Below, piece after piece: positions 1,006 to 11,600 of a DNA stretch of 32,672 nt. A program made the position numbers and the translations under genes. The stretch is from Flavobacteriaceae bacterium (GTDB taxonomy: Bacteria; Bacteroidota; Bacteroidia; Flavobacteriales; Flavobacteriaceae), in the NCBI GenBank assembly GCA_002862715.1, contig PKDV01000010.1, forward strand, positions 1 through 32,672. The letters run 5' to 3'. A model generated the notes under the pieces. That model saw nothing but the letters and a program-made list of their open reading frames with translations, ran no database searches and was not told the DNA's origin. Every line of letters begins with the position of its first letter. Position 1 is the first letter of the stretch.

Positions 1006-1124
1006 TTTTTACTACAAAATTTAATTTTTTCCCAATTTTTTTCCCACTTTTTTCGCCATGTAAATGGTCTACCACAATTGAAGCAAATTTTAACTGGTAA
1101 ATTTTCTTTTTTAACACCTCTCAT
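993..1124 (-). CDS. DUF2256-family small Cys4 protein (43 aa)
   Basis: Missing from ORF track. Translation [43 protein letters not shown]. CxxC...CxxxC plus [10 protein letters not shown] is characteristic of DUF2256. ATGA overlap with upstream photolyase stop; 13-nt overlap with downstream Cry-DASH start. Confidence 0.92.
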
Positions 1125-2413
1125 GTTTTTAATCCAGCTTTGTAAGTATCTAAGCATCTGGAACGTGCAAATTTATGGTCAATTATTGGTTCTGGGTATT
1201 CTGGAGATTCATATTCTGGAACCCATTTTCTTATATATTCGTGTTTTTTATCAAATTTTTTTACCTGTTCAGTTGGATTAAAGACACGAAAATATGGTGC
1301 CGCGTCAACTCCACATCCAGCTACCCATTGCCAATTACCAACATTGCTAGATTGTTCATAGTCAAGAAGTTTTTCAGCAAAATATGCTTCTCCCCATCTC
1401 CAGTCAATTAACAAGTGTTTGCACAAAAAACTTCCTGTTAGCATTCGAACTCTGTTATGCATAAAACCAGTTTTATTTAACTCACGCATACCGGCATCAA
1501 CTAGAGGAAAACCCGTCATACCATCACACCACCTTTTATAATCATTTTCATCATTGATCCACTCAATTTTATCATATTGAGGCTTGAAACTTGAATGAAT
1601 AGTCTTCGGAAAATGCCACAAAATATGCATGAAAAATTCTCTCCAAATTAACTCTTTTAAAAATGTATTTATAACACTCTTTTTAGCTTTTGAAACCATT
1701 TTACGAATAGAAATAGTACCAAACCTCAAGTGCACACCAATTCTGCTTGTTCCATTTATTGATGGATAATTGCGAACTGAGTCATATTTGTCAATTAAAT
1801 CTGAAGAATAAGTTGGTTCTATTGGTTTAATTTCTGATTTTATAAATCCAATTTCCTCCAATGTTGGGATATTTGGTAATGGAATTTTGTGTAAGTTGTT
1901 TAAAAGATTAATAGTAGAATATTCTTTAATATCTTCTGATTCTAGTTTTGAAATCCATAACTTTGAGAATGGGGTATAAACTTTATAGGGAGTACCATCT
2001 TTCTTTAGTACTTCATTAGGAGCGAAAATTACTTGGTCTTTAAATGATTTAAATTTTACACCATTATCAGATAATTTTTCTGAAACTTCCAAATCTCTTT
2101 TTCTAGCATAGGGCTCATAATCCTCATTTGTATATACTGACTCAATCTTATATTTTTCACACAATTTGGGGATAAGTACAATCGGATTACCTTTAGCCAC
2201 GAGCATGGAGCTTCCATATTTATAAAATTCTAACTGCATTTTTTGTAGATTTTTATAAATAAAATCAATGCGTGCATCAGACTTTGGAATTTTTTTTAAA
2301 ATATTTTTATCAAAAACAAAAACTGGAAGTACTTTCTTACCACTATTTAAAGCATTGTATAAGCCAACATTATCCCCAATTCTTAAGTCCCTTCGAAACC
2401 AGAATAAAATCAT
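1121..2413 (-). CDS. phr: Deoxyribodipyrimidine photolyase (class I CPD photolyase-like)
   Basis: [22 protein letters not shown]..., FAD-domain motifs [64 protein letters not shown]-track start 2416 is TTG; ATG at 2411-2413 is more likely. Confidence 0.95.
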
Positions 2414-3111
2414 CAATTGATATTTAAAGTAGAGATACCTCCATCAAGTCCAATTACCTGACCTGTCATCCAACTACTTTTTTCAGTAAGGAGAAATACA
2501 GCTAATTCAGCAACATCATTAACACTTCCAATTCTTTTTAATGGATGCCTCAATGAAGATTTTTCTTTTTTAATTTCATTATTCAAAAATCTATTAGCTA
2601 AAGGAGTATCTGTTATTGAAGAGGCTATTAGGTTGACCCTTATTTTTGGTGCCCATTCTGCTGCAAGAGATCTTCCAAGGCCTTCTAGTGCACCTTTTGA
2701 TGCTGCTACACTAGCATGAAAAGGTATGCCAGTTTGCACGGCTACTGTACTAAATAAAACTACACTCGCTTGTTCGCTTGCCGCTAATAGTGGTTGAATA
2801 ATTTGTAGACATTTTACTGCTCCCAGAACATTGAGTTCAAAATCGTTTAGAAACGCTTCGGATTTGAGGCCCTTAAACGGACGTAAATTTATACTTCCAG
2901 GACAATATACAAAACCATCAATTTTTGGTGGTAATTCCTCTAAAGATAATGTGTCTTCAGTTGCGTTAAAAGTTATGTGTTTTACTTTTTTGTTATGTAA
3001 TCCTTCTTTTGTTCTTGAGGCTACTATGATTTCAGATTCCTTTGGTAAAAGATCAATAATTTTATTTCCAATTCCATAACTACCTCCAATTAATAAAAAT
3101 GTTTTATTCAT
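2413..3111 (-). CDS. SDR-fold oxidoreductase, photolyase-operon type (atypical active site)
   Basis: GGSYGIG Rossmann motif and C-terminal WMTGQVIGLDGG typical of SDRs. The YxxxK position reads VAASK (V135...K139). Confidence 0.88.
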   Translation of the reverse strand: MNKTFLLIGGSYGIGNKIIDLLPKESEIIVASRTKEGLHNKKVKHITFNATEDTLSLEELPPKIDGFVYCPGSINLRPFKGLKSEAFLNDFELNVLGAVKCLQIIQPLLAASEQASVVLFSTVAVQTGIPFHASVAASKGALEGLGRSLAAEWAPKIRVNLIASSITDTPLANRFLNNEIKKEKSSLRHPLKRIGSVNDVAELAVFLLTEKSSWMTGQVIGLDGGISTLNIN

Positions 3112-3566
3112 GATTCTGTATTAAAAATTTTATCCAATGCTTGTTCTCTATATTTAAAAATTTGTCTGACTTTAAATTTTACAAACAATATATGTGCTAA
3201 CCAACCAATAGGACCAAGAGGTAGTTTATAATCAACAATATCCTCCATTATTACTCCATTTTTTGATTTATTTATAAAATGTTTGTGATGCCAAAAAGTA
3301 TATGGACCAAAACGTTGTTCATCAACAAAATATGAGCCTTTTTTTACATGAGTGATTTCTGTAACCCAACGAAATGGGATTCCTAGGATTGGAGTTAATC
3401 TGTATTGAATAATTTGGCCGGGGAACATTATTCTGTCTGCGCCAGAAATAATGTCAAAGCCCATATATTTTGGTGTAATAAGCTTTAAGTTTTTAGGATT
3501 AGAAAGAAAATCCCAGGCTTCGTCAATAGTAATAGCAAGCTCCTGCTTGGATCTATACTGATACAT
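3108..3566 (-). CDS. SRPBCC (START/Bet v1-like) family protein
   Basis: 152 aa, YRSKQELAITIDEAWDFLSNPKNLKLITPKYMGFDI...FVDEQRFGPYTFWHHKHF; typical SRPBCC ligand-binding/cyclase-like sequence. ATGA overlap with the SDR. Confidence 0.85.
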   Translation of the reverse strand: MYQYRSKQELAITIDEAWDFLSNPKNLKLITPKYMGFDIISGADRIMFPGQIIQYRLTPILGIPFRWVTEITHVKKGSYFVDEQRFGPYTFWHHKHFINKSKNGVIMEDIVDYKLPLGPIGWLAHILFVKFKVRQIFKYREQALDKIFNTES

Positions 3567-3644
3567 AGCATTTTTTTTGCTAATATACCTATTTTGATAA
3601 ATGTCAAATGAGTTAAGAGTTTAATTTTTTGCTTATAAATTAAA

Positions 3645-4376
3645 TTATTTAAGTTTTTTTGTACTCATAACATATAAGGTGTAGGTAAAAATTATAATAA
3701 TTATTTCCCAAAAAAATATGTAAATTGGCCATTCTCCAATTATTAATGGGTTATTAACTTCAGGTTTGCCATTAACATACATATAATTAGATCCAATAAA
3801 ATAATTGATAGGCATAACAATTATTAACAATATATTCAAATATACAACAACTCTTAACCAAGAGAACTTAGTTAACCTAAAACCAAGGTTTTTAAGCATG
3901 TAAATTGGTAGCAACATAATTCCGATGTGAGAAAGATACCATTCAATATACTCATAATTACTCCCGTCAAAATTATTTATCTGAGGAGTAAAAAAAGCTT
4001 GAAATGCTCCAATGATTCCTGCATAATATAAAAATTCGAAAAATTTACTTTCTTTTGAAATCTTAGGAACAAATAAAATGAAACATGCGATAAAATTAGA
4101 AATACTGCAGAGGTGAAGAGGTATATTGTCAACAGGGTTCCAATAACCATTAATTATATTTCTAGTGTGTCCAGTAATTGTAATAAAAATTAAAATAACA
4201 GAAATAGCTTTTGCAAAAATTAATTTGTTTTTATTACTCAAAAACTTTCCAAAAAACAAGTACGTTACAATGAATAAAATTGTTAAAACTGTATTTCTAA
4301 TCCATTCCCCAGAAAAAACTTCTATGACATATGCCTCAGGACTCATAATGTAAATATAAGGATAATGAAATAGCAT
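3645..4376 (-). CDS. YwaF/TIGR02206-like integral membrane protein
   Basis: Multiple hydrophobic helices with NIPLHLCSISNF motif. Track start 4382 is TTG; ATG at 4374-4376. Confidence 0.75.
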   Translation of the reverse strand: MLFHYPYIYIMSPEAYVIEVFSGEWIRNTVLTILFIVTYLFFGKFLSNKNKLIFAKAISVILIFITITGHTRNIINGYWNPVDNIPLHLCSISNFIACFILFVPKISKESKFFEFLYYAGIIGAFQAFFTPQINNFDGSNYEYIEWYLSHIGIMLLPIYMLKNLGFRLTKFSWLRVVVYLNILLIIVMPINYFIGSNYMYVNGKPEVNNPLIIGEWPIYIFFWEIIIIIFTYTLYVMSTKKLK

Positions 4377-8832: not shown

Positions 8833-9289
8833 AGATTACTCTGAATTAAATCTTGAATCGATTCCAAATATTGCTGGGAAAGAGGTTTTTATAATTGTTT
8901 CAACTTGGAACAAGAAAATTACTGATAAACTTTATGAAGGAGCTAAGTTTGTTTTAGAAAATAAAAAATGTATTATAAAAAAAGTTAAAGTCCCAGGAAG
9001 CTTTGAGCTAGTATATGCGTGTAAAAAAGCTCTTATAAAAAAACCACATGCAATTATCGCAATCGGATGTATTGTTAAGGGTGATACACCTCATTTTGAT
9101 TTTATTTCAAGCTCTGTTGCTAACGGTATTTCTCAACTAAATCTAAAAGGAGAAGTACCTGTTGTTTTTGGAGTTATTACTGCAAATAATTACCAGCAAG
9201 CAGTTGAGAGATGTGAAGGTTTTAGCTATAAAAATAAGGGCGTCGAAGCAGCTGTTACAGCTATTAGTATGATAAACTTTACTGTTTAA
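8822..9289 (+). CDS. ribH: 6,7-dimethyl-8-ribityllumazine synthase
   Basis: VPGSFELVYACKKAL, IAIGCIVKGDTPHFDFISSSVANGI, PVVFGVITANNYQQAVERC. Confidence 0.96.
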   Translation: MLNKDYSELNLESIPNIAGKEVFIIVSTWNKKITDKLYEGAKFVLENKKCIIKKVKVPGSFELVYACKKALIKKPHAIIAIGCIVKGDTPHFDFISSSVANGISQLNLKGEVPVVFGVITANNYQQAVERCEGFSYKNKGVEAAVTAISMINFTV

Positions 9290-9728
9290 AGAACTTTTTG
9301 GGTACAAAAAGCATCCCAAAGCATTCTCCATCTTCTTTTGTTAAATGTTTGTGGTGTATTTTATGTGCTCTTCTCACTGCCTTTGCATATCGATTATTTA
9401 CTCTTTTCCAAATCTTAAATCTTTGATGAATAAAAATGTCATGAACAATAAAATAAGTAACTCCATATGCAAAAATTCCTATAGCAATGGCTAAACCGGG
9501 GAAAAAACTAAATTCACCCCACAAAATCACAAAAAAAGCACTAACAAATGCATAAAAAACAAAGAACAAGTCATTTCTTTCGAACCATGATTTTTTATTT
9601 TTAACATGGTGGTCTTTGTGTAAATTCCATAAAAACCCATGCATAATGTATTTATGGCTAAACCATGCCATTCCTTCCATTATTAGAAACGTACAAACAA
9701 AAATTAATATTTGAACAAATAAATTCAA
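9279..9728 (-). CDS. crtZ: Beta-carotene hydroxylase (CrtZ-like, fatty acid hydroxylase superfamily)
   Basis: Four His clusters: HKYIMH, HKDHH, HDIFIH, HKIHH; ~149 aa; next to crtB. Confidence 0.92.
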   Translation of the reverse strand: MNLFVQILIFVCTFLIMEGMAWFSHKYIMHGFLWNLHKDHHVKNKKSWFERNDLFFVFYAFVSAFFVILWGEFSFFPGLAIAIGIFAYGVTYFIVHDIFIHQRFKIWKRVNNRYAKAVRRAHKIHHKHLTKEDGECFGMLFVPKKFFKQ

Positions 9729-9736
9729 GGTTTAGA

Positions 9737-10576
9737 TTAAAGAAGATTGAATTGATATCTAATAAAACTACGTGCAAGTACATCAGCTTTTTGGTAATTT
9801 GCAACTCTTATTCTTTTAGATTTAATTTCAGTAGAGGGGGTTTTTTTTAGTTTTTTTAACAATCTCAAATAATATTTGTAGGCTGTGTATACTCCGAATT
9901 TTGATTCGTTAGGAAGTTGAAAAATACCCGTTTTACCTTGCTTGAAATCTTCTTTTATTTCATTTATAATCTTGGATTTAGAATATTCATCAAATGAATC
10001 TATATTAACATCTGGAAAATATAATCTGTTTAAATTTTCAGTATCAGATTTTAAATCTCTAAGAAAATTAACTTTCTGAAAAGCTGAACCTAGGTGCATA
10101 GCAGGTTTCTTTAACTTTTCGAAGAGTCTTTTATCCCCTTTAACAAATACCTTTAAACACATTAAACCAACAACATCAGCTGAACCATATATATAATCTT
10201 TATATTCTTTTTCTGTCTTATAATTTTTTTTTGACAAATCCCACCTCATACTAGTCATAAAGGATTTAATGTAATCAATATCAATATGGTATAAGTTCAC
10301 AGTCATCTGAAAACTATTAAGGATAGGATTTAAACTAATTTTATTGGAAATTGCAAGGTAAAGTGATTCTTCAAAACGATCAAATAGTTCCATTTTGTTG
10401 TACGAATGAAATGTATCTACAATTTCATCAGCAAATCTAACAAAGCCATAAATGTTATATATATGAGTTCTGATGCTTGAGGAAAGCATCCTTGTAGCCA
10501 ATGAAAAAGAAGTACTGTATGAATTTGTAACTATCTTACTACACTCATAAGAAACACTATCAAATAACTCTTTCAT
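9737..10576 (-). CDS. crtB: Phytoene synthase (squalene/phytoene synthase family)
   Basis: YGFVRFADEIVD, GSADVVGLMCLKVF, AFQKVNFLRDLKSD motifs. Confidence 0.95.
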   Translation of the reverse strand: MKELFDSVSYECSKIVTNSYSTSFSLATRMLSSSIRTHIYNIYGFVRFADEIVDTFHSYNKMELFDRFEESLYLAISNKISLNPILNSFQMTVNLYHIDIDYIKSFMTSMRWDLSKKNYKTEKEYKDYIYGSADVVGLMCLKVFVKGDKRLFEKLKKPAMHLGSAFQKVNFLRDLKSDTENLNRLYFPDVNIDSFDEYSKSKIINEIKEDFKQGKTGIFQLPNESKFGVYTAYKYYLRLLKKLKKTPSTEIKSKRIRVANYQKADVLARSFIRYQFNLL

Positions 10577-10633: not shown

Positions 10634-11536
10634 TTAGCACTGAGCCAATTTTCCAATTACTTGTTCTATAGAAGTAAATTTTGATACATTTTGCGGTAAA
10701 AACTTAACAAATTGTACTTGATATCCAAGAATCCAGAAATCACAATTCATATTTTTTAGTATCTCCTCATTAAAGTCATTTAAATATTCATCAATTTTCT
10801 CTTGATTCGGTTCAATAGTAAAATATGATATAAAAGTAATAGGTTCACCAATGTCAACTAAATTCTTTAAACTTTCAATTGGAACGGATTGTCCCAAAAA
10901 AACACATTGAAAACCATGATTCAAAACCTCATATTGTAAATATAAAAGTCCAAGCTCATGAATTTCGTTGTCTGGAAGAAAAAGCACAAATTTTCTATCA
11001 TTTCTTTTTATTTTAGTTTGTTGTAGGTCTTCACATATTGAGTGAATTTTTTGTTTAATTAAACTTGTAATAAAGTGTTCGTGTGATGGGCTGATAGAAT
11101 TTGTTTGCCAAAGTGTTCCTAACTCATTCATTAATGGTACAAATACATTTTTAAAAACTTCTCTAAACGAAAAGTTTTCTAATAACTCGCTAAAAGTTTT
11201 AGAAAAAAGTCTTTGATCGAAATTAATCATTGCTAATTTAAACAGACCTAATGACCAGTTATTAGAGTTTTTGTTTACTGTTAATTCAAGGATTTTTCTT
11301 GATATTTCATTTTCGTTGTAAGCAGCAATTTTTGATATTTTATGTCCATTATTGTAGAGAAGAGTTACATTTAAAAGTTTTTGAAGATTTTCAAGATTAT
11401 ACATTCGTATATTAGTATTTGTCCTTTCAGGTTGAAATAAGCTATATCTTTTTTCCCATATTCTGATAGTATGTGCTTTAATGCCTGATAAATGCTCTAA
11501 ATTTTTTATATTAAAACTATTTTTAACGCGGTCCAT
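10634..11536 (-). CDS. MerR-family regulator with C-terminal B12-binding-like domain (CarH/LitR-type candidate photoreceptor)
   Basis: MerR HTH: FNIKNLEHLSGIKAHTIRIWEKRYSLFQPERTNTNIRMY. C-terminal LWQTNSISPSHEHF (W-x9-EH) and NEIHELGLLYLQYEVLNHGFQCVFLGQSVP (ExHxxG). ORF-track start 11554 is TTG; ATG at 11534-11536. Confidence 0.88.
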   Translation of the reverse strand: MDRVKNSFNIKNLEHLSGIKAHTIRIWEKRYSLFQPERTNTNIRMYNLENLQKLLNVTLLYNNGHKISKIAAYNENEISRKILELTVNKNSNNWSLGLFKLAMINFDQRLFSKTFSELLENFSFREVFKNVFVPLMNELGTLWQTNSISPSHEHFITSLIKQKIHSICEDLQQTKIKRNDRKFVLFLPDNEIHELGLLYLQYEVLNHGFQCVFLGQSVPIESLKNLVDIGEPITFISYFTIEPNQEKIDEYLNDFNEEILKNMNCDFWILGYQVQFVKFLPQNVSKFTSIEQVIGKLAQC

Positions 11537-11540
11537 TTGT

Positions 11541-11573
11541 TTAACAATTTTCAAACAATATTAAACAAAAATA
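11541..11573 (-). promoter_or_regulatory. Phased AAACAA repeats overlapping the -10 region of the merR-type gene
   Basis: + strand ttaACAAttttcaaACAAtattaaACAAaaata; cytosines at 11545, 11556 and 11566 (11 and 10 nt apart), the last inside the -10 box. Confidence 0.4.
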
Positions 11574-11595
11574 AAATAATTTATATTAAAACAAA
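11566..11595 (-). promoter_or_regulatory. Bacteroidetes-type promoter of merR-type gene
   Basis: Minus strand TTTG (11592-11595) - N18 - TATTTTTG (11566-11573), matching TTG/TAnnTTTG. Confidence 0.6.
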
Positions 11596-11600
11596 AAGTG

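Follow-up and report, generated by a model that had tools for sequence, protein, structure and literature searches.

The locus raises the question of whether the gene at the head of the carotenoid operon of this small marine Flavobacteriaceae bacterium encodes a regulator that senses light through vitamin B12. A preliminary description of the stretch of DNA analysed here (the window, 32,672 nucleotides) had proposed a B12 photoreceptor of the CarH/LitR type adjacent to carotenoid genes. The fold, the pocket residues, the conserved operon and a retained enzyme that makes adenosylcobalamin (AdoCbl) support this proposal, which as a whole is borne out in part. Our reading, to which we assign a probability of about 0.72, is that the protein is a class I CarH/LitR-type, AdoCbl-dependent photoreceptor that represses in the dark and is released by light, and that it is a variant of CarH whose operator is an inverted repeat and whose regulon is wider. 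The computed basis of this reading consists of the domains, the fold, the pocket residues, the operon, a DNA dyad, the co-occurrence of dyad and regulator, and the retained adenosyltransferase. The genes in question lie on one strand:

10634..11536, minus strand: CarH/LitR-type MerR regulator, 300 amino acids from the ATG at 11536, the TTG at 11554 being an unlikely start
9737..10576, minus strand: crtB, phytoene synthase (PF00494), second gene of the operon
9279..9728, minus strand: crtZ-like beta-carotene hydroxylase (PF04116), third gene of the operon

The order of the operon is strongly conserved, with crtB and crtZ downstream of the regulator in 74 of the 75 loci that have enough flanking sequence. 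The crtI gene is also found just downstream in 48 of those loci, between the regulator and crtB where inspected, and is missing from the regulator locus in the clade of the window. An alternative reading frame from TTG 11554 encodes 306 amino acids, and its residue numbering is used below. Judged from the sequence, the true start is almost certainly ATG 11536, because the TTG, some 12 bases away from the -10 box, falls inside the candidate operator, and because homologues begin at the equivalent methionine (MDRVK/MNNVK).

The regulator comprises the following elements:

11318..11512, minus strand: MerR winged-helix DNA-binding domain (PF13411 MerR_1, residues 15-79, 42.1 bits)
11045..11239, minus strand: four-helix B12-binding_2 domain (PF02607, 43.5 bits, with identical coordinates in the genome search)
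11075..11110, minus strand: W149-Q150-...-E159-H160 signature, corresponding to W131, H132, E141 and H142 of Thermus thermophilus CarH (TtCarH), from sequence, TtCarH alignment and conservation
10637..11005, minus strand: Rossmann-like cobalamin domain with E197-I-H199-E-L-G, from the alternating strands and helices of the model, the TtCarH match and the alignment

The MerR_1 and B12-binding_2 scores both exceed the Pfam cut-offs. The Rossmann-type B12 domain, PF02310, was not called in the regulator by Pfam, even at E 10; the structural model predicts a C-terminal Rossmann cobalamin domain, as expected of class I. LitR proteins of class II have the four-helix domain only, without the Rossmann domain predicted here. 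The AlphaFold (AF2) model, computed with 43 homologues, has a pLDDT of 88.2 and a pTM of 0.82. A Foldseek search of the PDB returned TtCarH as all of the first 12 matches (E 5e-13 to 4e-10), headed by 5c8d/5c8e and followed by the B12 domains of CtMerR and TtCarH with target TM values of about 0.8; TtCarH thereby ranks above every other solved structure as a match for the regulator. The narrow equivalog model NF052513 (TransRegCarH) of NCBIfam scores 72.8 bits (E 2.7e-20), against a cut-off of 400 bits. The class I features found are the MerR domain, B12-binding_2, the predicted Rossmann domain, the Trp cap with Glu-His, the axial His, a TnnACA operator and the carotenoid linkage.

The open reading frame and the residues that the preliminary description had quoted (W149, Q150, E159, H160 and E197-I-H199-E-L-G) are present exactly as given, and its match of W-x9-EH and ExHxxG to the TtCarH signatures is upheld: the HMMER alignment places the motifs residue for residue on W131, E141-H142 and H177 of Thermus CarH. 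His199 is accordingly the predicted lower axial His, equivalent to TtCarH H177. Among the 80 readable Flavobacteriaceae homologues, W-x9-EH is kept in 79 (the exception, L072, has EQ) and so is ExHxxG (exception L068, EIHDIW). Both motifs persist down to about 50% identity and, as far as alignments can tell, are far from chance. The adenosyl pocket of L072 (218-1123), with EQ and not EH, appears to be a natural variant; its genome, G089, retains the adenosyltransferase and has no PF02310 protein.

A rather improbable alternative is a B12-independent relative, of the Myxococcus CarA or Pseudomonas class II LitR type, that keeps the fold and the DNA site and takes its signal from a partner protein or a different photoreceptor instead of bound AdoCbl. 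The uncalled PF02310 would suit such a protein, whereas class II LitR is without the Rossmann domain that is present here, and a Trp cap, Glu-His pair and axial His so widely conserved are unlike a lost cofactor site. The cofactor economy of the genomes bears on this point as well. The genome that carries the window (G000) measures 1.37 Mb and is 87% complete, so that absences in it may be gaps. It contains no PF02310 protein and no methylmalonyl-CoA-type mutase, and its single PF02607 match is the regulator itself, which is the sole B12-binding protein detected in this 87%-complete genome. Its ribonucleotide reductase is of class I, with nrdB adjoining nrdA; NrdJ was considered as a further AdoCbl user and rejected, since its matches lie below the cut-off and the genome's own gene stands beside nrdB. 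No cobalamin riboswitch was found in this genome, which again would suit B12 independence.

By contrast, a PduO-type cobalamin adenosyltransferase, the enzyme that makes AdoCbl, is present in the genome (L083); CobA-type PF02572 is absent, so PduO is the only type found. The gene (L083:8301-8879) is a solitary one, flanked by a phosphatidyltransferase-like gene and secA and without a neighbouring B12 uptake gene. The adenosyltransferase is kept in all 15 of the closest relatives, seven of which have MetH-sized PF02310 matches and none a mutase-type match. Other relatives without a mutase match include one with both regulator and adenosyltransferase (G002), four with neither (G004, G035, G045 and G051) and one with the adenosyltransferase and no regulator (G047). 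The draft genomes G074, G085 and G091 depart from the pattern in the opposite sense, as does G008 (99% complete), which has the regulator and mutase genes with the adenosyltransferase undetected. Taken alone, G008 would speak for B12 independence; as a clean counter-example it was rejected, because its mutase genes also need AdoCbl and the lack of the enzyme does not concern the regulator in particular. The retention of the adenosyltransferase in genomes without another AdoCbl enzyme argues against a B12-independent protein. Within the limits set by incomplete genomes and common descent, the simplest reading is that the enzyme persists in order to supply the regulator.

The residue that follows the Trp is Gln150, where TtCarH has His132. 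Gln is found in 79 of the 80 readable Flavobacteriaceae homologues (L013 has Leu), and in more distant Flavobacteriales the position is taken by Gln, Leu, Met, Thr, Gly or Arg; His is absent from all order-level relatives parsed. The position also varies in photoreceptors for which chemistry with AdoCbl and light has been demonstrated, being Arg in CtMerR (8jbs/8jbt), Gln in SasPcob and Tyr in AbDPcob (PMC11796333). These proteins share the signature without His at 132 and differ in coming from other phyla and, for SasPcob and AbDPcob, in their biliverdin-binding architectures. Gln is therefore a rule of the lineage that occurs in other B12 photoreceptors as well, and nothing special to the protein of the window. 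The earlier remark that the photoproduct could differ is sound, yet neither specific nor new. Because His132 is missing, the regulator probably does not form the bis-His light adduct of TtCarH, to judge from its residues. A light response without this adduct is possible, since CtMerR with its Arg passes from tetramer to monomer in light (PMC11796333) and SasPcob has Gln; it is not guaranteed, since TtCarH H132A stays mostly tetrameric in light, the substitution largely blocking light-driven dissociation (PMC10442372).

Three elements precede the gene and define its presumed promoter:

11536..11569, minus strand: candidate operator dyad TTTGTTTAA-N16-TTAAACAAA, 34 bp, each half holding TnnACA (TAAACA)
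11566..11573, minus strand: Bacteroidota-type -10 element TATTTTTG (TAnnTTTG), overlapped by the left half of the dyad
11592..11594, minus strand: TTG at -33, 18 bp from the -10 element, by consensus match only

The region 11536-11600, which had been suggested for EMSA, is well chosen in that it holds this dyad. The dyad occurs once in the 32.7-kb window, against 0.02 occurrences expected, and stands at the own promoter of the CarH-like gene in nearly all homologues, with 0-2 mismatches within the clade of the window. Of 77 MerR promoters, 67 have the right-half T-n-n-ACA at precisely this spacing, any other shift reaching at most 3, even though the start codon precedes the right half-site in some lineages and follows it in others. 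TnnACA is the published CarH half-site, where it is arranged in tandem 11-bp direct repeats (PMC9304148). Such tandem repeats form the published operators of Thermus and Bacillus CarH, in contrast to the inverted pair found here. A layout of three 10-11 bp direct repeats as in TtCarH was considered for the operator of the window and rejected as a general design, as relatives conserve the inverted pair only.

The same dyad marks further genes in relatives, among them an operon that is also present in the window:

1121..3566, minus strand: SRPBCC-SDR-photolyase operon, with the dyad about 29 bp upstream in relatives and lost here

Every clade relative for which this stretch was fetched (L121-L133) has the dyad there with 0-1 mismatch. 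It is also found upstream of msrA-folE in three clade relatives and, with 1-3 mismatches, before the proteorhodopsin gene and divergent to blh in the clade; a perfect copy lies between proteorhodopsin and blh in G034, a genome outside the clade and within the same family. Many genomes have dyads before crtI. In a scan of 381 upstream regions, not an unbiased sample as part of them were chosen because of the dyad, no other region scored as high as these groups and htpG; next in rank came an unrelated kinase-like gene (12.6). The proteorhodopsin promoters gave Markov p values of 0.001-0.05 in regulator-bearing genomes, with G020 weak (0.14); the signal is absent at the corresponding promoter of the regulator-less G004 (0.20). 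Genome-wide counts at no more than one mismatch in 36 Flavobacteriaceae genomes amounted to 129 dyads versus 23 for the reversed control in the 28 regulator-positive genomes, and to 4 versus 5 in the eight regulator-negative ones (Mann-Whitney p=6e-5, uncorrected for kinship). Proteorhodopsin and blh are thus, as these sites suggest, very probably under the regulator in relatives.

Dyads were also observed at other genes. Most of the clade has a two-mismatch copy ahead of htpG (G000:C25:13238-13271 in L137, and L138), and a perfect one lies between htpG and a TetR_C_23-like gene in G012 and G027; the htpG dyad may mark a regulon member or a different site. A protein of 140-160 amino acids is encoded behind a dyad in G034, G017, G013 and G029 (L213:1535-1960, L220, L240 and L244); the one copy scanned has no Pfam match, and the protein is a candidate light-response protein by its position. 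One or two tandem dyads accompany fasciclin-domain lipoprotein-like genes that diverge from an mnmA-like gene (L205, L216, L232 and L238), which suggests a light-regulated surface protein.

The position and the targets of the dyad bear on a second alternative, namely that the protein binds cobalamin as a B12 or redox sensor, or acts as a classical MerR activator, and is not a light-released repressor. Sequence cannot show a light response, and Gln occupies the position at which replacement of His impairs TtCarH, both of which would fit this alternative. Classical MerR activators occupy the spacer that separates -35 from -10, whereas the dyad overlaps the -10 box and the start region, the place of a repressor and not of a MerR activator, and its targets are light-protection genes; together with the monomerization of CtMerR despite its Arg, this makes a sensor or activator quite unlikely.

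A third alternative assigns the dyad as operator to a different regulator, such as a TetR_C_23 protein, with the CarH-like gene merely among the targets of that regulator. TetR-type proteins bind palindromes and autoregulate, and TetR_C_23-like genes, one of them Pfam-checked, follow the dyad in G012, G013, G017, G027, G034, G036 and G083. The half-site is, however, the CarH half-site TnnACA at exact spacing, the dyad tracks the presence of the CarH-like gene and is found at that gene's promoter in nearly all homologues, and 25 bp is a long half-site separation for a single TetR dimer; the probability of this alternative is accordingly low. A MliR-type iron regulator was rejected, MliR being described with a coiled coil and no B12 domain (PMC9478572).

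In the light-released repressor that we favour, AdoCbl binding, repression and release, which we infer, would proceed as follows. In the dark, AdoCbl would be held between the four-helix bundle, with Trp149 as cap next to Glu159/His160, and the Rossmann domain, with His199 on the cobalt. The AdoCbl-bound regulator would oligomerize, and the oligomer would sit on the inverted TnnACA pair that overlaps the -10 box and the start region, shutting off its own regulator-crtB-crtZ operon. Light would break the Co-C bond and weaken the oligomer, allowing expression of the operon. In relatives, the regulator would through the dyad also control crtI, the photolyase operon, msrA-folE and, very probably, proteorhodopsin/blh, which would amount to a daylight regulon.

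The species of the window differs from these relatives. Its photolyase operon has lost the dyad, the best score there being 1.0 as against 19-25 in relatives. At no more than two mismatches, the genome retains the regulator's own dyad, a copy at htpG and a further, weak match. Proteorhodopsin is encoded, but the assembled match does not include the start of the gene or its promoter. Because of this loss and this missing promoter, the wide regulon is a statement about the relatives, and the window accounts for the carotenoid operon only. Comparison of window positions 3566-3645 with L121:2470-3500 indicates that an aquaporin-like gene and a short SdpI-like gene (names by sequence), which in relatives lie between a TMEM164-family gene and SRPBCC, were lost together with the dyad. 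The SRPBCC protein (3108-3566), which heads the light-linked operon, is about 80% identical among relatives and has no Pfam match. An apparent second photolyase/cryptochrome-type gene on the minus strand (1-1010) is cut by the edge of the window; in relatives, a second photolyase homologue also follows phr.

Comparison with known systems delimits what is new. The regulator shares with TtCarH (5c8d/5c8e/5c8f) the combination of MerR, four-helix and Rossmann folds, W-x9-EH and ExHxxG, the carotenoid-gene neighbourhood and an operator built from TnnACA units; it differs in its 16-18% identity in the structural alignment, its Gln, its inverted half-sites 25 bp apart as opposed to three 11-bp direct repeats, and its wider target set. 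Myxobacterial CarH/CarA likewise repress a carotenoid operon through plastic operators, that of CarA having been described through inverted repeats (PMC9304148), whereas CarA is B12-independent, needs CarS and has other neighbouring genes. The class II LitR regulon of Pseudomonas includes the light-induced phrB, folE and cry genes (PMC9758184), and the photolyase and folE operons of the relatives carry the dyad; class II LitR works with LOV proteins and lacks the Rossmann B12 domain. CarH itself is already known, and a gene for a MerR protein with a B12 domain has been noted ahead of the crt genes of a flavobacterium: the report on the zeaxanthin-producing flavobacterium GF1 describes such a gene in the same order and suggests regulation by photo-oxidative stress, and the passages concerned contain no argument on operator, regulon or cofactor (PMC6974559).

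Among open-licence papers, no report was found of the dyad, the regulon, the proteorhodopsin link or a cell that seemingly retains AdoCbl solely to sense light. Research on how light stimulates the growth of Flavobacteriia with proteorhodopsin goes back years, and the open-licence literature searched names no regulator for it. The analysis names a regulator, defines a precise site of 34 bp and lists targets that are testable in cultured relatives, and structural photobiology gains a large family of probable B12 photoreceptors natively without His132. We propose tentatively, with rather more doubt than confidence, that some streamlined marine Flavobacteriaceae keep B12 only as the chromophore of a repressor that switches on carotenoids, photolyase, and proteorhodopsin with its retinal-making enzyme. 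If this is true, the supply of B12 in seawater would set the use of sunlight by these cells. The findings also suggest that B12 and the use of light are ecologically connected in the surface ocean, where these bacteria may turn on their whole daylight programme by means of B12.
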